Below are positions 1,843 through 11,009 of a DNA stretch of 11,009 nt, piece after piece. Each line of letters opens with the position of its first letter. Position 1 is the stretch's first letter. The position numbers and the translations under genes were made by a program. The notes beneath the pieces are model-generated. The model had not been told where the DNA came from. It was given only the letters and a program-made list of their open reading frames with translations, and did not search any database. Source of the stretch: Actinomycetota bacterium (GTDB taxonomy: Bacteria > Actinomycetota > Thermoleophilia > Gaiellales > Gaiellaceae). The stretch is from contig JACDER010000018.1 in assembly GCA_013816275.1 (NCBI GenBank), positions 1 through 11,009 on the forward strand, given 5' to 3'.

Positions 1843-2561
1843 GCTGGGCCGCACACGACCTCGAGCCGTACGCCTTCCAGCGACACCTCGGGCTCAAGAT
1901 GGCCTTCGTCCCACTGCTGATCGGGTCGTACGCGCCCGACCTGATGACGAAGTGGTTCGTCTACGGCGTCCACATCTTCGGGTTCAACTTGAAGGCCGAC
2001 GACCCGGTGCAGTTCCACCGCGGGTGGCCGGGGGCGGGGTTCACACACTCGCTCCTGTTCGGCGCGGTGATCGGCCTGATCATCTGGAAGGTCTTCGGGA
2101 GCAAGCTCTGGGGGATCAGCTTCATGATCGGCCAGTGGGCCCATGCGATCACCGACACGGGCGACACGGTCGGGACGATGCTCCTCTTTCCCTGGACCCA
2201 GCACGTCTCGATCGGCGCGTGGGCCTACGCGGGGCAGACCGGCCGGCTGACCGACGCGGCCGCGTACTTCAGCGGTCTCGGCTGCATGTGGGACCTCTTC
2301 TGGGTCGTGTACGGCCTCTACAGCTGGAGGGTGCTGACGACTGAGTACTTCAACAAGGTCATCTTCGCGGCGGACCACCGCTTCTGGGGCTGGCTCCACA
2401 AGTACATCGGGAGCACCGGATTGCTGACGCTCTACCGCGCCGCCTTCTTCTACGGGAGCTGTCGGTTGGTGGCGTGGACAATCTGGGCGCACGTCTATCA
2501 CGACTACCCGTACGACCTCACCTGGGGTGGCCCGCACTGGGTGGATGCGGCTCACCCGTAG
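1839..2561 (+). CDS. Membrane-bound metal-dependent hydrolase-like protein (YdjM/DUF457-like)
   Basis: A 240-residue polytopic membrane protein with several hydrophobic segments. Its polar motifs resemble the YdjM/DUF457 family of integral-membrane proteins annotated as metal-dependent hydrolases: H6-D7 near the start, Y-A-P-D (D34), F-H-R-G (H60), F-T-H-S (H70), then W-A-H-A-I-T-D-T-G-D (H102, D106, D109). In that family these His/Asp residues are thought to bind metal; the biological substrate is generally unknown. The GTG start sits behind a strong ribosome site and overlaps the upstream stop. The C-terminal third is rich in Trp and Tyr. Co-transcription with a wall hydrolase and two small membrane proteins suggests an envelope role. 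Family assignment is from motif layout only; no catalytic activity is claimed. Confidence 0.65.
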   Translation: MSWAAHDLEPYAFQRHLGLKMAFVPLLIGSYAPDLMTKWFVYGVHIFGFNLKADDPVQFHRGWPGAGFTHSLLFGAVIGLIIWKVFGSKLWGISFMIGQWAHAITDTGDTVGTMLLFPWTQHVSIGAWAYAGQTGRLTDAAAYFSGLGCMWDLFWVVYGLYSWRVLTTEYFNKVIFAADHRFWGWLHKYIGSTGLLTLYRAAFFYGSCRLVAWTIWAHVYHDYPYDLTWGGPHWVDAAHP

Positions 2562-2595
2562 TGCCCATTTGCAGCAGCTTTTTGCCGGTTCACGC

Positions 2596-2625
2596 TTGCA
2601 CTCCCGCCGATATCGTTGCTACGGT
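2596..2625 (+). promoter_or_regulatory. Candidate promoter for a leaderless mRNA
   Basis: TTGCAC (2596-2601), an 18-base spacer, then TACGGT (2620-2625) fit a loose sigma-70-type promoter. Transcription would begin about 7-10 bases later, at or next to the GTG at 2635. There is no Shine-Dalgarno sequence before that GTG, which agrees with a leaderless transcript, common in actinomycetes. TATCGT at 2611-2616 is an alternative -10. Confidence 0.35.
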
Positions 2626-2634
2626 CCCCGGCTC

Positions 2635-3753
2635 GTGACGCCCCGAACCCTGTTTGTGCGGTCCGCCACGGCCTCCCTCGTCGCCTTCGTCGCCCTTGGC
2701 GTAAGCGCCGCTCCGGCCTCCGCCGCGCCTGCGGCGATCAAGGCCAAGGAGGCGCAGGTGCAGGACGTGCTCGGCCAGATCCAGCAACTCGACGCGAACC
2801 TGGAGCAGGCGATCGAGGCGTACAACGCGGCGACGGACAGGCTGCACGCGATCGAGGACGACCTGCGCGTGAACACACGAGAGCTGCACATCGCACGCGT
2901 CAACCTGAAGAGGTCGCAGGCGGCGCTCGCGAACCGCCTGGTCTCCATCTATACCGGCGAGGCGGCGCCGTCCACGCTGGGGATTCTCCTCGGCGCCGGC
3001 TCGATGGACGAGATGCTGAGCCAGATCGAGACGTCGGACCGTGTCTCGAGCCAGGACGCCGCGATCAACCGCCAGGTCCTCCGATTCCGCGCTGCCGTCA
3101 AGAAACACCGTGTCGAGCTGAAGAACGCGGAGGCCGAGCAGCAGCAGCTCGTGCAGGAGCGCGCCGACGCCCAGGCGTCGATCGAGTCGCAGCTCTCCGA
3201 CCGCCGTCAGCTCGTCGACTCGATCCGGTCGGAGATCCAGCAGATGAAAGCGGAGGAGCGGCGCCGGCAAGCCGAGCTCAGACGTCAGGCCGCGGAGGCC
3301 CGGGCGGCCCAGGCAGCCCAGATCCAGCAGGTCGCGCTTGGAAACCCATACGCGACTTCACCCCAGCCGACCGTCAACGTGCCGCCCTCTTCGGTCGGCT
3401 CCACGGTGGTGAACATCGCTATGCGCTACCTCGGCATCCCGTACGTCTATGCCGCAGCGGATCCAAGCGTGGGCTTCGACTGCTCCGGGCTGATCATGTA
3501 CGTGTTCAACCAGGTTGGCATCTCTCTGCCCCACTACGCGGCCTCCATCTACGGCTACGGCGTGCCCGTGTCCCAGGATCAGCTCCAACCTGGCGACCTC
3601 GTCTTCTTCCACGACCTTGGTCATATGGGTATGTACATCGGAGGCGGCAACTTCATCCATGCCCCGCACACGGGCGACGTGGTCAAGATCTCGAGCCTTT
3701 CGGACGCCTGGTACGCGTCCACGTACGTAGGCGCCCGGCGCATCGCCGGATAG
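2635..3753 (+). CDS. Exported coiled-coil NlpC/P60 peptidoglycan endopeptidase
   Basis: A 372-residue secreted wall hydrolase of the RipA/PcsB-like layout. Residues 1-31 are a signal peptide (hydrophobic core around 11-23, cleavage near ASA-AP). Residues 32-232 are a long Gln/Glu/Ala/Arg-rich coiled coil with a break around 107-135. In relatives such a region holds the enzyme inactive or docks it on a membrane partner. A short Pro/Ser linker follows, then NlpC/P60 at 255-372 with catalytic C283 (FDCSGL), H330 (HMGMYIG) and H342 (FIHAPH). GTG 2635 is chosen because the signal peptide starts there. An earlier in-frame ATG (2527) lies inside the upstream gene and would put a 36-residue basic stretch before it. 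The catalytic core closely matches the first hydrolase in the window. The likely role is cell separation or wall remodelling. Confidence 0.9.
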   Translation: MTPRTLFVRSATASLVAFVALGVSAAPASAAPAAIKAKEAQVQDVLGQIQQLDANLEQAIEAYNAATDRLHAIEDDLRVNTRELHIARVNLKRSQAALANRLVSIYTGEAAPSTLGILLGAGSMDEMLSQIETSDRVSSQDAAINRQVLRFRAAVKKHRVELKNAEAEQQQLVQERADAQASIESQLSDRRQLVDSIRSEIQQMKAEERRRQAELRRQAAEARAAQAAQIQQVALGNPYATSPQPTVNVPPSSVGSTVVNIAMRYLGIPYVYAAADPSVGFDCSGLIMYVFNQVGISLPHYAASIYGYGVPVSQDQLQPGDLVFFHDLGHMGMYIGGGNFIHAPHTGDVVKISSLSDAWYASTYVGARRIAG

Positions 3754-4137: not shown

Positions 4138-4159
4138 CGGTACCCCGTCGGGGTATACT
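4131..4159 (+). promoter_or_regulatory. Promoter of the copper operon
   Basis: TATACT (4154-4159) is a good -10 box sharing two bases with the CsoR operator. A -35 box would fall at 4131-4136 (TCAATA), which is a poor match. Transcription would begin near 4166, leaving a leader of about 20 bases with a strong ribosome site (AAGGAGG, 4175-4181) four bases before ATG 4186. Confidence 0.6.
4141..4155 (+). promoter_or_regulatory. CsoR operator (perfect palindrome)
   Basis: TACCCC-GTC-GGGGTA is a perfect inverted repeat with G/C-tract half-sites, the layout of known CsoR boxes ahead of copper-efflux operons. Its right end overlaps the -10 box. CsoR bound here would block RNA polymerase, and Cu(I) binding to CsoR would release it. 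The csoR gene is third in this same operon, so the loop is autoregulatory. It is the only such palindrome I found in the window. Confidence 0.8.
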
Positions 4160-4185: not shown

Positions 4186-4386
4186 ATGGAGACGATCAGC
4201 TACACCGTTCCGGCCATGCACTGCGGCCACTGCAAGGCCGCGGTCGAGGAGGAACTGTCCGTTGTGGAGGGGGTTGAGTCCGTCGACGTCGACCTGGGCA
4301 CGAAGCTCGTCCTTGTCCGCGGCGACGGCCTCGTCGACACCGAGCTGCGCGCTGCGATCGAAGAGGCGGGATACGAGGCCACCTGA
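4186..4386 (+). CDS. copZ: Copper chaperone CopZ (heavy-metal-associated domain)
   Basis: A 66-residue single HMA domain (beta-alpha-beta-beta-alpha-beta ferredoxin-like fold) that carries Cu(I) in the cytoplasm to the CopA ATPase. The metal site is M11-H-C-G-H-C16: C13 and C16 bind copper, and the extra His residues are as in many bacterial CopZ proteins. The fold end is marked by EEAGYEA. The start is fixed by the AAGGAGG site. It is the first gene of the CsoR-controlled operon, and its TGA shares one base with the copA ATG (TGATG), so translation is probably coupled and the chaperone and pump are made together. Confidence 0.9.
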
Positions 4387-6503
4387 TGGCGACGGTCGCC
4401 GAGACGCCTGAGCGAGTCGACCTCGCGCTCGAGGGGATGACCTGTGCCTCCTGCGCCGCACGGATCGAGCGCAAGCTGAACAAGCTCGAAGGCGTCGCCG
4501 CAACGGTCAACTACGCGACCGAGCAGGCGACCGTCCACTACGACCCTGCGCTCATAGTGCCTACGGATCTGGTTGAGGCGGTCACGGCGGCCGGCTACGG
4601 CGCGGCGCTTGCGGGCCAGGCTGCCGCCGATGAGGACTCGACCCGGCCTCTCCGGCGCCGGCTCGCTGCTGCAGCCGCGCTGACGGTGCCCCTCGTCTTC
4701 CTCGCGATGGTTCCGCCCCTGCGGTTCGGCGGCTGGGAGTGGCTGGCGCTCGCCCTGGCGACGCCGATCGTGTTCTGGAGCGGCTGGACGTTCCACCGCG
4801 CCGCCGTCGCAAACGCGCGGCACGGAGCGGCGACGATGGACACGCTCATCTCGATCGGCACGCTGGCGGCCTGGACCTGGTCGACGGTCGTTCTCGCCGG
4901 CTCGCTCGGCGGTGACACCTACTTCGAGGTCGCCGGCGTGATCACGACGCTGATCCTCCTGGGGCGCTTCCTCGAGGCGCGGGCGCGGCGCCGCTCGGGA
5001 GCAGCGATCCGCGCGCTGCTCGAGCTCGGCGCGAAGGAGGCGCGGGTGCTGCGCGACGGGCAGGAAGTGCTGGTTCCCGTGGACGAGCTCCAGCCGGGTG
5101 ACTGCTTCGTCGTCCGCCCTGGTGAGAAGATCCCGACCGACGGGGTGGTCGAGGACGGGGCCTCGGCGCTCGACCAGTCGATGTTGACCGGGGAGTCGGT
5201 CCCGGTCGAGGTCGCGCCCGGCGCGGAAGTCGCCGGTGCGACGATCAACACCTACGGGCGGCTCCTCGTCCGCGCGACCAGGGTCGGCGCAGACACGGCG
5301 CTCGCCCAGATCGCGCGCCTCGTCGCGGAAGCGCAGGCAGGGAAGGCGCCGATTCAGCGACTCGTCGACCGCGTCTCCAGCGTCTTCGTCCCGGTCGTGA
5401 TCGTGATCTCGCTCGCGACGCTGGGCGGCTGGCTCGCCGCCACCGCAGACGCTTCCGCCGCCTTCACCGCCGCCGTCGCCGTGCTCATCATCGCCTGCCC
5501 CTGCGCGCTCGGTCTCGCGACTCCTACGGCGCTCATGGTCGGCACGGGTCGCGGCGCGCAGCTCGGCATCCTGATCAAGGGCCCCGAGATCCTCGAGCAG
5601 ACGCGCAGGATCGGGACGATCGTGCTCGACAAGACCGGGACTGTGACGGAGGGGAAGATGGAGCTCGTCGAGGTCAGGCCGCTGGATGGCGCCTCCCGCT
5701 CCGAGATCCTCCGGCGCGCCGGAACGGTCGAGGCGGCGAGCGAGCATCCGATCGCCCAGGCGGTGGCCGCGGCGGCGCGTGCCGAGCTCGGTGCGCTGCC
5801 CCCCGTGAGCGACTTCCGCAACCTGCCGGGCTTCGGCGTTCGCGGCCTCGTCGAGGGCAGCGAGGTCGAGGTGTCTCGCCGGGATGGCGCGATCACGGTC
5901 GCCTGGGATGGTGTGCCGCGCGGGACACTCGTCGTCCGCGACACCGTCAGGCCGACGAGCGCCGAGGCGGTCAGGGAGCTCGAAGCGCTCGGGCTCACGC
6001 CGATCCTCCTGACCGGCGACAGCGAGGAAACGGCCAGGCGCATCGGCGCCGAGGTCGGTATCGAGCGCGTGCTCGCCGAGGTGCTCCCGGACGAAAAGGT
6101 CGCCGAGATCCGAAGACTGCAGGAGTCAGGACAGGTCGTCGCCATGGTCGGCGACGGCGTCAACGACGCACCGGCCCTCGCGCAGGCCGACCTGGGAATC
6201 GCGATCGGCACCGGCACTGACGTGGCGATCGAGGCTAGCGACGTCACCCTCGTCTCGGGAGATCTCCGCGGAGCCGCAGACGCAATCCGGCTGGCACGCC
6301 GGACGCTGCGGACGATCAAAGGCAACCTCTTCTGGGCCTTCGCCTACAACGTCGCAGCGATCCCGCTCGCGGTCGCCGGGCTGCTGAATCCGATCATTGC
6401 CGCCGCCGCGATGGCGGCCTCGAGCCTGCTCGTCGTCTCCAACAGCCTGCGACTACGCAGGTTCCACAGCCCGAGGGAGGGACGAGATGGAACACGGATA
6501 TGA
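4386..6503 (+). CDS. copA: Copper-exporting P1B-type ATPase CopA
   Basis: A 705-residue inner-membrane pump expelling Cu(I) with ATP. In order: one N-terminal HMA domain with GMTCASC (C20, C23); two platform helices and the A-domain with TGES (268-271); CPC (C371-P372-C373) in the transport helix; DKTGT (415-419, phosphorylated D415); SEHP (H454) and PGFG (481-484) in the nucleotide domain; TGD (543-545); GDGVNDAP (589-596). The last helices have Y654-N655 and MAASS (M676, S680), the Cu(I) ligands of the P1B-1 class. Oddly, the nucleotide domain is about 24 residues shorter between PGFG and the P-domain than in the neighbouring ATPase, and it lacks the usual V-G-N segment. It overlaps copZ by 1 base and csoR by 17. 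Confidence 0.92.
6475..6480 (+). promoter_or_regulatory. Ribosome-binding site of csoR
   Basis: GGGAGG, inside the end of copA and six bases before ATG 6487, selects that ATG over the far-upstream in-frame ATG at 6397. The latter would add a stretch with no similarity to CsoR. Confidence 0.65.
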
Positions 6504-6771
6504 GAAGGAGCCGCTGATCAAGCGGCTGCACCGGATCGAGGGCCAGGTCCGGGGGATCGAGCGAATGGTCGAGGACGACCGCTACTGCATCGACATCATC
6601 ACGCAGATCTCGGCCGTCAATACGGCGCTCGAGTCCCTCGCCTTCCAGATCCTGGACGAGCACGTCCGGCACTGCGTCGCTGGTGCGCTCGCTTCCGGCG
6701 ATCCGGACGAGGCGGGCAAGAAGAGCGAGGAGCTGCTCTCCGCCGTCCAGCGGTTCGCGCGGACGCGGTGA
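6487..6771 (+). CDS. csoR: Copper-sensing repressor CsoR
   Basis: A 94-residue all-helical repressor of the CsoR/RcnR family. The family signature is present: a helix with [14 protein letters not shown], then the Cu(I) ligands C34, H59 and C63. Their spacing (25 and 4) equals that of Mycobacterium tuberculosis CsoR (C36, H61, C65), and Y33 occupies the neighbouring second-shell position. Apo-CsoR binds the operator; Cu(I) binding in a trigonal Cys2His site releases it. The likely target is the palindrome at 4141-4155. Placing the repressor between the two ATPase genes means it is induced together with the pumps, giving negative feedback. The start overlaps the end of copA, and the stop forms TGATG with the next gene. 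Confidence 0.92.
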
Positions 6772-9110
6772 TGGCCGAAGAGCAGGAGACGGCCGACCGG
6801 AAGGCGACGGCCGTCCTCCACGTGGGTGGCCTCCACTACGCGAGCGAGAAAGTGGTTGTCGAGCGGGCGCTCGGACGGCGGCCGGGAGTGCTGGCAGTCG
6901 ACGCGAACCCTGTCGCCCAGACCGCCACGGTCACATTCGACCCAAAGCGGACGAAGGTCGAGCAGCTGGCCCGCTGGGTCGAGGAGTGCGGCTTCCATTG
7001 CGCGGGTCGCTCTGTGCCGGGCCACGCGTGCGACCCGCTGGCGGACGGCGCGCAGGCATCCTCCGCGCGGGCCGATGCTGCACACGGCCACGGGCACGGC
7101 GGCCATGCCGGCAAGTCGATGGCGGCGATGGTGCGCGACATGCGCAACCGCTTCCTCGTCGCTGTCAGCTTCGCGATTCCGATCGCGGTCTGGTCCCCGC
7201 TCGGCAAGAGCCTGTTCGGTTCGACGCCGCCGACGCCGCGCGGGATCGGTGACGACCTGTGGCAGTTCTACTTGAGCCTGCCGATCGTCTTCTATTCGTC
7301 GTGGATCTTCTTCCGCGGCGCCTATGTGGCGCTGAAGGCAAAGACGCTCGACATGATGGTGTTGGTCGCGGTCGCGATCGGGACGGGCTGGATCTACTCG
7401 GTTGCCGCCACTTTCTGGATCGAAGGTGACGTCTTCTACGAGGCCGCCGCGTTTCTCGCCTCCTTCGTCCTGCTCGGCCACTGGTTCGAGATGCGCGCGC
7501 GCGGCGGCGCGAACGATGCGATCCGGGCACTGCTCGACCTTGCTCCCCCGAAGGCGCTCGTGCTGCGCAACGGCGAGCCCGTCGAGGTTCCGACGGCGGA
7601 GGTGCAGCTTGGTGACCTGCTGTTGATTCGCCCGGGCGGAAAGGTTCCCGTCGACGCGGAGGTCGTCGGAGGCGAGAGCTCCGTCGACGAGTCGATGGTG
7701 ACGGGCGAGAGCATGCCGGTTTCGAAGAAACCCGGTGCCAAGCTGATCGGCGCGACGATCAACAAGAACGGGACGCTTCGAGCCCGCGCCACCGCCATCG
7801 GCTCCGACACGGCACTCGCGCAGATCGTCAAGCTCGTTCAGGAAGCGCAGAACTCGAAGGCCCCGGCGCAGCGGCTCGCTGACCGCGCGGCCTTCTGGCT
7901 CGTACTCGTCGCGCTCGTCGGAGGCCTGGGCACGTTCCTGGTCTGGTTCGGCCCCTTCGACCGTTCCGTCGTCGACTCGCTCCTGTTCGCGATCACGGTC
8001 GTCGTCATCACGTGTCCGGACGCGCTCGGGCTGGCCACACCGACGGCGATCATGGTCGGCACGGGGCTCGGCGCGAAGCGCGGGATCCTGTTCAAGAACG
8101 CGATCGCCCTCGAGCAGGCCGCGGGCCTCGACACAGTCGTGCTCGACAAGACGGGGACATTGACGCGTGGCGAGCCGGACGTCGTCGCGATCGTGGCCGC
8201 AAACGGCGACGAAGATGGCCTGCTGCGGCTGGTCGCGGCGGTGGAACGCGAGAGCGAGCACCCGCTCGCAGCCGCGATCGTGAACGCCGCGGAGGCGCGT
8301 GGGTTGCAGCCGCCGCGGGCAGAGTCATTCGAGGCGGTTCCGGGGCATGGTGCACTCGCAACGGTGGAAGGGCGCAGGCTGGCTGTCGGGAACGTGCGGC
8401 TCCTCGAGCGGGAGGGTGTCTCCCTCGACGGCCTGGCCGAGCGCGCGACTGAGCTCTCAGGTCAGAGACGAACGGTTGTGCACGTCGCGCTCGACGGCAG
8501 CGCCGCCGGCCTGATCGCGATCGCCGACGCTCCCCGGAAGACGGCGACCGACGCCGTGGCTGCCCTGAAGGCCCTCGGGGTCCGCCCGGTCATGCTGACC
8601 GGCGACAACAAGGCAACGGCAGAGCGGGTCGCGGCCGAAGTTGGGATCGAAGAGGTCATCGCCGAGATCCTTCCGGGCGACAAGGCAGCCAAGGTCGCCG
8701 AGCTCCAGGCCGAAGGACGCAAGGTCGCGATGGTGGGCGACGGCGTAAACGACGCGCCGGCGCTGGCACAAGCGGAGGTCGGGATCGCGATCGGCGCCGG
8801 AACAGACGTCGCGATCGAGACCGCCGACGTCGTGCTGATGCGATCGGACCCGCTCGACGTTGCGACTGCGATTGCGATCGGCCGTGGAACGGTGCGGAAG
8901 ATGCGACAGAACCTCGCCTGGGCGATCGGCTACAACTCGCTCGCGCTTCCGATCGCGGCCGGGGTCTTCGAGCCGTTCGGAGTGATGTTGCGTCCCGAGA
9001 TCGCAGCGATCTCGATGTCCGGATCGAGCATCCTCGTCGCCGTGAACGCAGTTGCGCTGAAGCGTCTGCCGCTCGACTATGCGACCCCGACGCTCCGGTC
9101 CAGGCGCTGA
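6771..9110 (+). CDS. P1B-type metal ATPase with atypical CPD motif
   Basis: A 779-residue metal-transporting P-type ATPase. Residues 14-78 keep the HMA fold, but the CxxC positions are Y23 and E26 (GGLHYASE). They are followed by C73, C77, C87 and a His cluster (HGHGHGGH, H105-H112). Further on are TGES (311-314), DKTGT (459-463, D459), SEHP (H497), PGHG (524-527), VGN (539-541), TGD (610-612), GDGVNDAP (656-663), Y721-N722 and MSGSS (M749, S753). The transport-helix motif is C415-P416-D417 (codons tgt ccg gac) instead of CPC, so the substrate or coordination may differ from CopA. Cu is favoured because of the CsoR operon and the Cu-type YN and MxxSS residues. ATG 6771 is chosen by analogy with the TGATG junction of copZ/copA; GTG 6768 is also possible. 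Confidence 0.88.
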   Translation: MAEEQETADRKATAVLHVGGLHYASEKVVVERALGRRPGVLAVDANPVAQTATVTFDPKRTKVEQLARWVEECGFHCAGRSVPGHACDPLADGAQASSARADAAHGHGHGGHAGKSMAAMVRDMRNRFLVAVSFAIPIAVWSPLGKSLFGSTPPTPRGIGDDLWQFYLSLPIVFYSSWIFFRGAYVALKAKTLDMMVLVAVAIGTGWIYSVAATFWIEGDVFYEAAAFLASFVLLGHWFEMRARGGANDAIRALLDLAPPKALVLRNGEPVEVPTAEVQLGDLLLIRPGGKVPVDAEVVGGESSVDESMVTGESMPVSKKPGAKLIGATINKNGTLRARATAIGSDTALAQIVKLVQEAQNSKAPAQRLADRAAFWLVLVALVGGLGTFLVWFGPFDRSVVDSLLFAITVVVITCPDALGLATPTAIMVGTGLGAKRGILFKNAIALEQAAGLDTVVLDKTGTLTRGEPDVVAIVAANGDEDGLLRLVAAVERESEHPLAAAIVNAAEARGLQPPRAESFEAVPGHGALATVEGRRLAVGNVRLLEREGVSLDGLAERATELSGQRRTVVHVALDGSAAGLIAIADAPRKTATDAVAALKALGVRPVMLTGDNKATAERVAAEVGIEEVIAEILPGDKAAKVAELQAEGRKVAMVGDGVNDAPALAQAEVGIAIGAGTDVAIETADVVLMRSDPLDVATAIAIGRGTVRKMRQNLAWAIGYNSLALPIAAGVFEPFGVMLRPEIAAISMSGSSILVAVNAVALKRLPLDYATPTLRSRR

Positions 9111-9180: not shown

Positions 9181-9768
9181 CTACTCGTGATGCATGCCGA
9201 CGGTGTACCTGTTCATGATCCGGATCTCTCGCTTCTGCGCCGCGATGATCGCAGTCGCGAGATCCTTTACCTCTTGGTGCTGCGCGTCCCTTTGAGCCGC
9301 CTTCGCCATTGTGATTGCGCCCTCGTGGTGCGGGATCATCATCTGGGCGAACGTCGCGTCGACGTCATCGGCTGCCGTGATCTCGTCAGCCCCGCCATGC
9401 TCCATGCCCAGCTCCGACTCGGGGACGCCTAGGACTTCCGGCAGCACGGGGCCGAGGGCGCGGGACCCGAACCACTGCTCCCGCCAGGCGAGCATCTGGT
9501 CGATCTCTCGCTGTTGCGACGAGACAATGTCGTCCGCGACTGTCACGAGTTCGGGCTGCGTCAGTCCGCGGGCCTTGGCCGCTTCCGCCATCTCGATGGC
9601 GTCGCGGTGGTGCGGGACCATCGCGTCGACGAACGCTTGGTCGAACGGAACTTCGCCGGACGTCGTCGTCTTGGCGCCGTCGGCGGATTTGCCAGAGCCG
9701 CCTCCGCCGCCACAGCCCGCTGCCACGAGTGCGAGCCCGCCGAGCATCACTGCGATTAGTTTCCTCAT
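9181..9768 (-). CDS. DUF305 lipoprotein, probable copper-binding
   Basis: A 195-residue exported lipoprotein. The N-terminal signal ends in the lipobox V-A-A-G-C (C19), followed by a flexible Gly/Ser linker. The rest is the DUF305 (ferritin-like helical) domain with two matching motifs: M-V-P-H-H (H53, H54) and M-M-I-P-H-H (H147, H148), each followed by an acidic or glycine residue and further Met. It ends in MHHE. DUF305 proteins include cyanobacterial CopM, which binds copper outside the cytoplasm, so a metal-scavenging or sequestering role at the cell surface is likely. ATG 9768 is chosen over ATG 9786 because AAGGAGGAG lies just before it. It converges on the copper operon and is the last gene of a - strand group; no CsoR palindrome is visible upstream. 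Confidence 0.85.
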   Translation of the reverse strand: MRKLIAVMLGGLALVAAGCGGGGGSGKSADGAKTTTSGEVPFDQAFVDAMVPHHRDAIEMAEAAKARGLTQPELVTVADDIVSSQQREIDQMLAWREQWFGSRALGPVLPEVLGVPESELGMEHGGADEITAADDVDATFAQMMIPHHEGAITMAKAAQRDAQHQEVKDLATAIIAAQKREIRIMNRYTVGMHHE

Positions 9769-9770
9769 CT

Positions 9771-9779
9771 CTCCTCCTT
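9771..9779 (-). promoter_or_regulatory. Ribosome-binding site of the DUF305 gene
   Basis: On the - strand AAGGAGGAG ends two bases before ATG 9768. It is the strongest ribosome site in the window and decides the start; the upstream ATG at 9786 would place this site inside the coding region. Confidence 0.65.
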
Positions 9780-9793
9780 GCGCCACGTTGGGA

Positions 9794-10265: not shown

Positions 10266-11009
10266 TCAAGCGACTCGCCGCCCGCTGACCTGCTGCCAAC
10301 TCGCGCCGCCATCGTCGGAGCGGAAAAGCGTGCCGTTGAACGCGACCGCAAAGGCGGTGTTCGGCGCACTCGGCGCCCACGCGACAGGCCCGGCGCCACC
10401 CGGCAGGCTCAGTCGCCACCGCCAGGTGCGCCCACCGTCGATCGAAACAGCCAAACCGGCGCCGGCTGCGATTAGCCGACGCGGATCGCTGCCGCTGACG
10501 GCAAGCCCAAAGACCTGGCCGCGCGCGCTGACCCTCCAGTGCGCGCCTCCGTCGGCGGTCACGAGAAGGCCGCGATCCACGTCTCCGGCGAGAATTCGTC
10601 CGTTCTCGGTTACAGCCAGCGTCACAACGCCGCCACCCACCGCGCGAGAGACGAGCGAGAAGGAGCGACCGCCGTCAGACGACCGGTATAAGCCCTGACC
10701 TGCCACGGCTGCGAAAAGCGTGTCCGTGGCCCGAGGGTCGGCGGCGAGCGCGTGCACGTCGAAGTCGGGCAGTCCCGAAGCCTGGACGTCCGACCACGTT
10801 CGACCCCCGTCGGTGCTCTTCTTGAGCACATTGTGCCCCGCGACCCAGAGCTGGTTCGGGCCGAATCTCGTGAGGTTCATCGCGTCGTCGGCGCGCAGTG
10901 CTGCAAAGCGCCACCTGTTTCCCCCGTCCTCTGAGACGTAGAGACCATTGTGGGTGCCGAGGGTGAGCCTTTGGGAATCGGCTGGATCGACTAGGAGCGA
11001 GTGATAGTC
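10266..11009 (-). CDS. BNR/Asp-box beta-propeller protein, 5' end outside window
   Basis: A partial gene: the frame is open to the window edge, and 247 residues plus the stop are visible. Six Asp-box (BNR) repeats of the form S/T-x-D-G-G-x-x-W/F occur at visible residues 26-33, 65-72, 110-117, 151-158, 189-196 and 231-238, spaced 38-45 apart. That spacing is one propeller blade each, so most of a six- or seven-bladed beta-propeller is here. The first visible segment (HSLLVDPADSQ, LGTHNGLYVSEDGG) shows that the internal ATG at 10880 is not the start. Asp-box propellers occur in sialidases, sortilins and Ycf48-like factors, and exported bacterial members are often loosely named glycosyl hydrolases. 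No catalytic sialidase residues are evident, so binding or assembly is as likely as catalysis. It heads the - strand group that ends with the DUF305 lipoprotein. Confidence 0.82.
   Translation of the reverse strand, partial: DYHSLLVDPADSQRLTLGTHNGLYVSEDGGNRWRFAALRADDAMNLTRFGPNQLWVAGHNVLKKSTDGGRTWSDVQASGLPDFDVHALAADPRATDTLFAAVAGQGLYRSSDGGRSFSLVSRAVGGGVVTLAVTENGRILAGDVDRGLLVTADGGAHWRVSARGQVFGLAVSGSDPRRLIAAGAGLAVSIDGGRTWRWRLSLPGGAGPVAWAPSAPNTAFAVAFNGTLFRSDDGGASWQQVSGRRVA

Follow-up and report, generated by a model that had tools for sequence, protein, structure and literature searches.

The window (the whole stretch of DNA that was analysed, 11,009 nucleotides) contains a copper operon with genes for a copZ-like chaperone, CopA, CsoR and a second P1B ATPase with the transmembrane motif Cys-Pro-Asp (CPD), followed by a convergent DUF305/CopM-family gene (Table 1). 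The genome assembly is characterized by a size of 1.79 Mb, 342 contigs and a completeness of 64.55%. All four operon genes lie on the plus strand and overlap by 1 bp (copZ/copA), 17 bp (copA/csoR) and 1 bp (csoR/pump), which supports, at sequence level, their transcription together. The candidate operator, presumably of the CsoR type by its consensus, was found with 0 mismatches on both strands. When 1000 copies of the window were generated with a first-order Markov model, an exact match arose once; with up to two mismatches the window holds 2 matches, which is not unusual (as many in 53 of 200 shuffles). A -10-like TATACT at 4154–4159, spotted by eye, overlaps the palindrome. The copZ-like protein reaches 59 bits with the CopZ model NF047957, under the cut-off of 85. 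CopA has CPC at residue 371. CsoR reaches 111.7 bits with the RicR model (cut-off 175) and shows, by eye, C..HVRHC, which is taken to be the C-H-C ligand pattern. The DUF305/CopM gene can start with GTG at 9786; ATG at 9768 is the likely start.

Table 1. Features of the copper operon and of the CPD pump (residues numbered from GTG at 6768)
Feature	Position	Strand	Remarks
Candidate CsoR-type operator, TACCCCGTCGGGGTA	4141..4155		Perfect palindrome; 30 bp upstream of copZ ATG
copZ-like copper chaperone, 66 aa	4186..4386	+	CGHC; Pfam HMA 64.8 bits
copA, 705 aa, P1B Cu ATPase of the ordinary CPC type	4386..6503	+	TIGR01511 554.5 bits (cut-off 397)
csoR repressor	6487..6771	+	PF02583 105.4 bits
CPD P1B ATPase, 779 aa from ATG	6771..9110	+	TIGR01525 613.5 bits (cut-off 346.25), TIGR01511 593.3 bits (above cut-off)
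N-terminal HMA-like domain (residues 17-77), usual CxxC absent	6816..6998	+	PF00403 43.1 bits
CxxHC...PxHxC cluster C74-C88, CGFHCAGRSVPGHAC	6987..7031	+	Followed by His/Met-rich linker
E225, presumed exit-side Glu equivalent	7440..7442	+	
HWFEM cytosolic entry region, H238-M242	7479..7493	+	Like CPH pumps
CPD motif, C416-P417-D418	8013..8021	+	TGT CCG GAC
DKTGT phosphorylation motif	8145..8159	+	
Y722-N723 metal-site residues	8931..8936	+	
MSGSS, M750-S754	9015..9029	+	
DUF305/CopM-family lipoprotein-like gene, convergent	9181..9786	-	CopM NF049983 104.7 bits (cut-off 90); PF03713 115.7 bits

Residue numbers of the pump are counted from GTG at 6768, an alternative start; ATG at 6771 gives one less, so that the motif is then C415-P416-D417. 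Translation confirms the Cys-Pro-Asp reading of the earlier note, and the Cu-type ligands that it listed as kept (Y722-N723, M750 and S754 in the present numbering) are all present. The protein is a P1B-type ATPase by its TIGR01525 score and by DKTGT, TGE and GDGVND, and its catalytic motifs are intact. TM6 carries neither the CPC of P1B-1 nor the CPH of P1B-3. The combination named P1B-3a (CPD, YN(X)4P and MSGSS) is complete. Residues were compared over 65 CPD, 19 CPH and 111 CPC rows, with fragments and rows with other motifs left out and near-copies kept, so that rows are not independent. The third motif residue is D in 65/65, H in 19/19 and C in 111/111 of the respective rows, but these groups were sorted by the motif, and the meaningful evidence is that all high-identity matches carry CPD. 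Y, N and M are conserved in all 65 CPD rows; S754 is conserved in 60, with T in five rows of subgroup D.

All retrieved relatives at 55% identity or more whose sequence spans the motif carry CPD, in two phyla and on both genomes and plasmids, and the motif is a conserved trait of its lineage. The search of genome contigs matched at least 591 stretches, and 80 of more than 589 confirmed loci were kept. Among these, all 20 at 60% identity or more are CPD (the named ones are from actinobacteria, which makes an actinobacterial host of the window probable), as is L020 (Ktedonobacterales, 49%); the other 59 (38–49%) are CPC, two of them read by eye. Among 296 genomes of the phylum (E ≤ 1e-150), CPD is found at 21 of 21 listed places with at least 55% identity. 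Below that identity, where loci were retrieved for part of the matches, seven further loci (48–51%) are CPD, a locus of 45% is CPH and a locus of 49% is CPC. A scattered change or a sequencing error is rejected by the 20/20 contig loci and the 21/21 phylum places. Distribution within the window's own family is patchy: matches of 80–82% occur in 3 of 24 other genomes, all CPD, and a fourth member (79%) came from the phylum search (G151). On plasmids, relatives of 60–80% identity occur in 41 of the best 5000 records, and 20 of 20 plasmid members examined (at least 53% identity) are CPD. Hosts of plasmid CPD genes are Streptomyces, Rhodococcus, Nocardia, Mycolicibacterium, Pseudarthrobacter, Cryobacterium, Roseovarius, Paracoccus, Methylocystis, Acidovorax, Variovorax, Polaromonas, Methylophaga, Xanthobacter, Bradyrhizobium and Nitrobacter. 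In one class, reached via an alphaproteobacterial genome, the Nitrobacter CPD protein is matched in 2 of 240 genomes (E ≤ 1e-180), at three loci, all CPD.

The main tree comprises 51 proteins with the three motif residues masked, six of them outgroup rows (TPC, APC or putative Zn-type). CPD and CPH pumps form one clade apart from CPC CopA (bootstrap 100 / SH-aLRT 100), and the pump stands outside ordinary CPC CopA, in favour of the earlier note's view. The CPH pumps are a clade of their own (100/100), subgroup A (that of the window) joins subgroup B (99/97), and CPH is placed among the CPD lineages (99/96 and 95/84), which gives the order CPC, CPD, CPH. CPD with CPH is one clade; CPD by itself is, in the best tree, a grade that gives rise to CPH, with a single CPD clade not rejected (AU p = 0.198). 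A tree of 234 soluble-domain columns gives a weaker and partly different grouping, with A and B beside CPH and two D rows (83/88) and the C rows and the remaining D row near the base without resolved placement. In a quick tree of 84 rows, CPC and CPH are each split off as a whole by a branch of SH-aLRT 100, and CPD lies between them, needing two changes. Membership of the pump inside CPC CopA is rejected by both the masked tree and the quick tree; in the tree it groups with the CPH pumps of P1B-3 and not with the CPC pumps of P1B-1.

At least eight positions are common to CPD and CPH and differ from CPC, among them H238, W239, M242, L378, A382, G386, P695 and K711. H238 and W239 are present in 65/65 CPD and 19/19 CPH rows, M242 in 63/65 and 19/19; CPC rows have mostly R/Q/K, V/Y/L and A/L there. 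E225, which is equated here with E189 of Legionella CopA, is E or D in 65/65 CPD and 110/111 CPC rows and W or F in 19/19 CPH rows. Since the entry residues match CPH and the acidic exit residue matches CPC, the pump is predicted to combine a CopB-type entry with a CopA-type exit. Because of the masked tree and the entry residues common to CPD and CopB, the pump is classified, on its sequence, as CopB-like and not as a CopA with one changed ligand; the view that a single ligand was replaced in a site that is Cu(I)-like in all other respects is not supported, as the pump goes with the CopB type by tree and by at least eight common positions. Like CopB, it has the HWxEM entry with the other five common residues and an N-terminus devoid of GMxCxxC (12 CPH rows long enough), and it is sister to or nested with CopB in the tree. 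Unlike CopB, it has D for H in the motif, TPTA after the motif (IPLV in CPH) and the exit Glu kept where CPH has W/F. With CopA, for which structures are solved (3rfu, 3j09, 7r0g), it shares the catalytic motifs, YN, M, SS, the acidic exit residue and the operon partners; it differs from CopA in the third ligand, the entry region, the N-domain and its separate clade.

The GMxCxxC-type motif is absent from all 58 CPD N-termini examined. CxxHC...PxHxC occurs in 34/41 rows of subgroup A and 8/11 of subgroup B (42/52) and is absent from 9 subgroup C/D, 12 CPH and 104 CPC rows; the shorter CxxHC alone is found in 5 of the 104 CPC rows. Some of the ten A and B rows without the cluster have variants (two with C replacing the last His); others may come from a truncated frame. 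The cluster is possibly a new metal-binding element, as far as its sequence suggests. With regard to the His-rich N-terminus of P1B-3 pumps, the N-terminal segment has a median of 9 His across 39 rows of subgroup A only; the window protein has HGHGHGGHAGKSM.

Copper genes (CsoR, small HMA, DUF305, multicopper oxidase, CPC pump) were sought within 8 kb; flanks are often cut and are shorter on average for CPD (about 11–12 kb in total, versus 15 kb in controls). At least one occurs at 33/48 subgroup A loci versus 11/20 ordinary CPC loci of the phylum (p = 0.40), at 4/15 subgroup B loci and at 5/9 C/D loci. The 48 subgroup A loci include CsoR in 20, a CPC pump in 22, HMA in 17, DUF305 in 15 and multicopper oxidase in 8, in agreement with the suggested co-occurrence of CPD pumps with csoR, copZ-type and DUF305 genes. 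By gene neighbourhood, the link of subgroup A pumps to copper appears to be about as strong as that of ordinary CopA, in support of copper as the substrate. None of the sought genes was found at 15/48 subgroup A and 11/15 subgroup B loci (the latter mainly proteobacterial), many with short flanks. Subgroup B pumps are mostly located away from copper genes.

The best explanation, given a probability of about 0.7, is that the pump is a CPD-subtype P1B ATPase of the CopB-like (P1B-3) branch, acting as a CsoR-controlled copper exporter and as a second line beside CPC CopA. Copper would release CsoR from the candidate operator and induce the pump with copZ, copA and csoR. The metal, most likely Cu(I), would be taken from the cytosol by the entry-platform residues M196, E241 and D372, whose roles are presumably those of their CopA counterparts, with CopB-type H238 and M242, whose part is suggested by conservation. 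It would pass to a membrane site of C416, M750 and probably D418, with Y722/N723 nearby, and would exit past E225. Where other pumps have a thiolate or imidazole, the carboxylate might make the site weaker and harder and suit rapid release at high metal load over high affinity; this is a guess. Beside CPC CopA the protein would be a second-line, horizontally mobile resistance pump. Against this reading stands the lack of the sought copper genes at the subgroup A and B loci counted above. No biochemistry of any CPD pump was found in the open-licence literature. The CPD pumps form a genuine and conserved type of metal pump in bacteria, probably one for copper.

Asp is a harder ligand than Cys, and the carboxylate could instead alter selectivity, with export of Cu(II) or of some other, harder divalent metal that comes in under copper stress. 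This is rather unlikely. In its favour, the available text of PMC5552934 describes pumps of the related P1B-3 class as pumping Cu2+. The 11/15 subgroup B loci without the sought copper genes also speak for a different metal; the invariant Y, N and M of 65/65 CPD rows and the CsoR-type operator and C-H-C CsoR of the window's pump operon speak for copper. A CopB-type (CPH) pump is, moreover, reportedly Cu+-specific, as cited for Purohit 2018. It is improbable that the protein works slowly, as an assembly pump for the loading of a cuproprotein outside the cytoplasm (DUF305/CopM protein or multicopper oxidase): a DUF305 gene adjoins the window pump, and multicopper oxidase is near 8/48 subgroup A loci and 0/20 controls, but DUF305 is about equally common near subgroup A pumps (15/48) and ordinary CPC pumps (5/20), no oxidase gene was seen in the window, and the patchy, plasmid-rich distribution fits resistance. 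The delivery role suggested for the pump in the earlier note finds no support here. That the pump is an ordinary duplicate of CopA carrying a neutral change, for which 46% identity to the neighbouring CopA and the shared operon could be quoted, is very improbable in view of the split of CPD+CPH from CPC in the masked tree and the different entry residues and N-domain.

With the export of copper as the preferred reading, the pump belongs to a motif subtype that is already named. CPD was reported in 2017 for three Rhizobiales proteins, from Xanthobacter autotrophicus, Nitrobacter hamburgensis and Bradyrhizobium sp., as 'P1B-3a' or group VIc (PMC5552934, available text). These share with the window pump CPD in TM6, YN(X)4P in TM7 and MSGSS in TM8. 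In the available text of that source no biochemistry of the CPD proteins, no spread through actinobacteria and no copper-operon setting were found. The interpretation in the earlier note is supported in part: CPD is a conserved subtype whose effect on the pump appears to be undescribed, but the motif has been in print since 2017 (PMC5552934). Three rhizobial plasmid genes (L112, L113, L114) encode CPD/MSGSS proteins 54.7–56.0% identical to the window protein and are presumably those of the three published proteins; L112 and L113 fall in one subclade with the window protein (99/97). The window pump is of subgroup A and lies in a CsoR copper operon, whereas the rhizobial pumps are of subgroup B (IACPDALGLATPMA) and have ppk2, phosphoketolase, glycosidase or MFS genes as neighbours. 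The third CPx residue is used for assigning the metal specificity of P1B pumps, and with the CPD lineage, which is widespread, often carried by plasmids and placed between CPC and CPH pumps, there is a natural Cys-Asp-His series at one ligand position. Entry and exit sites change at different steps, so that the share of each part in Cu specificity and rate is testable.

Some CPD genes adjoin genes of archaeal-type (type II) GAPDH, phosphoketolase, acetate kinase or polyphosphate kinase. Within 8 kb, type II GAPDH is present at 3/48 subgroup A, 4/15 subgroup B, 4/9 C/D and 0/20 control loci; four GAPDH matches checked with NCBIfam were all over the cut-off. Other metabolic neighbours are phosphoketolase, PPK2, acetate kinase and, at two loci, arginine deiminase. 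Metabolic neighbours occur at 13/15 subgroup B loci versus 1/20 controls (p = 9e-7), a comparison that is partly circular because most query proteins derived from B loci; subgroup A alone (8/48, p = 0.26) is not significant, and C/D have 4/9. Type II GAPDH is rare in the phylum (13/296 genomes) and is found in 8/28 CPD genomes versus 5/268 others (Fisher p = 2e-6), with CPD status taken from retrieved loci, weaker other matches scored as not CPD, and six of the eight genomes being those where the link was first noticed; one family (f26) gives five of the eight. A CPD gene lies within about 8 kb of GAPDH in six of these eight. The association is limited by circularity and kinship. No CPD gene was shown in five of the 13 type II GAPDH genomes. 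In G018 a CPC P1B ATPase (CPCALGMATP, L266:9756-12026) lies about 0.7 kb from type II GAPDH, and the link may therefore not be exclusive to CPD pumps. The window's genome (64.55% complete) shows no type II GAPDH, and the window itself has the copper-operon version only.

Copper export may be linked, as these recurring neighbours suggest, with a bypass of copper-sensitive glycolysis. Inhibition of S. aureus enzymes by copper is described for GAPDH and for PRPP synthetase in the available text of PMC6350627 and PMC10249872, respectively; a PRPP synthetase gene stands beside a CPD pump at only 1 of 72 CPD loci. No report linking a copper P-type ATPase with type II GAPDH, or with phosphoketolase and polyphosphate kinase 2, was found in the open-licence literature. 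It is a tentative and somewhat doubtful proposal that CPD pumps are, all in one, a separate, ancient class of copper pump and the source of CPH CopB, with CopB-type entry, CopA-type exit, an Asp transport site and, in A and B, the new N-terminal CxxHC...PxHxC cluster, many of them carried by plasmids and islands together with reserve or bypass enzymes of central metabolism (archaeal-type GAPDH, phosphoketolase, acetate kinase, PPK2, and arginine deiminase in two loci), by which the flow of carbon and ATP would be maintained when GAPDH is blocked by copper. If true, export and metabolic bypass would be combined in one module of metal resistance.

Type II GAPDH is located at most about 7 kb from CPD in unrelated bacteria (L215, L222, L265, L273, L275, L207, L225, L232). 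In L275 (G234) CPD, type II GAPDH, phosphoketolase and acetate kinase are in one locus. PPK2 is near subgroup B CPD at 6/15 loci (L112, L114, L117, L118, L204, L233), immediately upstream in L117, L118 and L233. Outside the copper operon the window contains a YdjM-like membrane protein gene (1839–2561; weak Pfam match, 31.7 bits), for which neither 71 other CPD loci nor 20 controls have a relative nearby. NlpC/P60 cell-wall peptidase genes lie upstream of the operon (372–1523, with an M23 domain too, and 2527–3753); they are probably unrelated to the pump, since relatives are similarly present near 3/71 other CPD loci and 2–3 of 20 controls. A BNR-repeat protein (10266–11009) is F510_1955 family glycosylhydrolase-like at 112.1 bits (cut-off 175). 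BNR/F510_1955-like proteins are near 2/71 other CPD loci and 0/20 controls, and in Rhodococcus aetherivorans (L225) an F510_1955-named protein is among the neighbours of the CPD pump.
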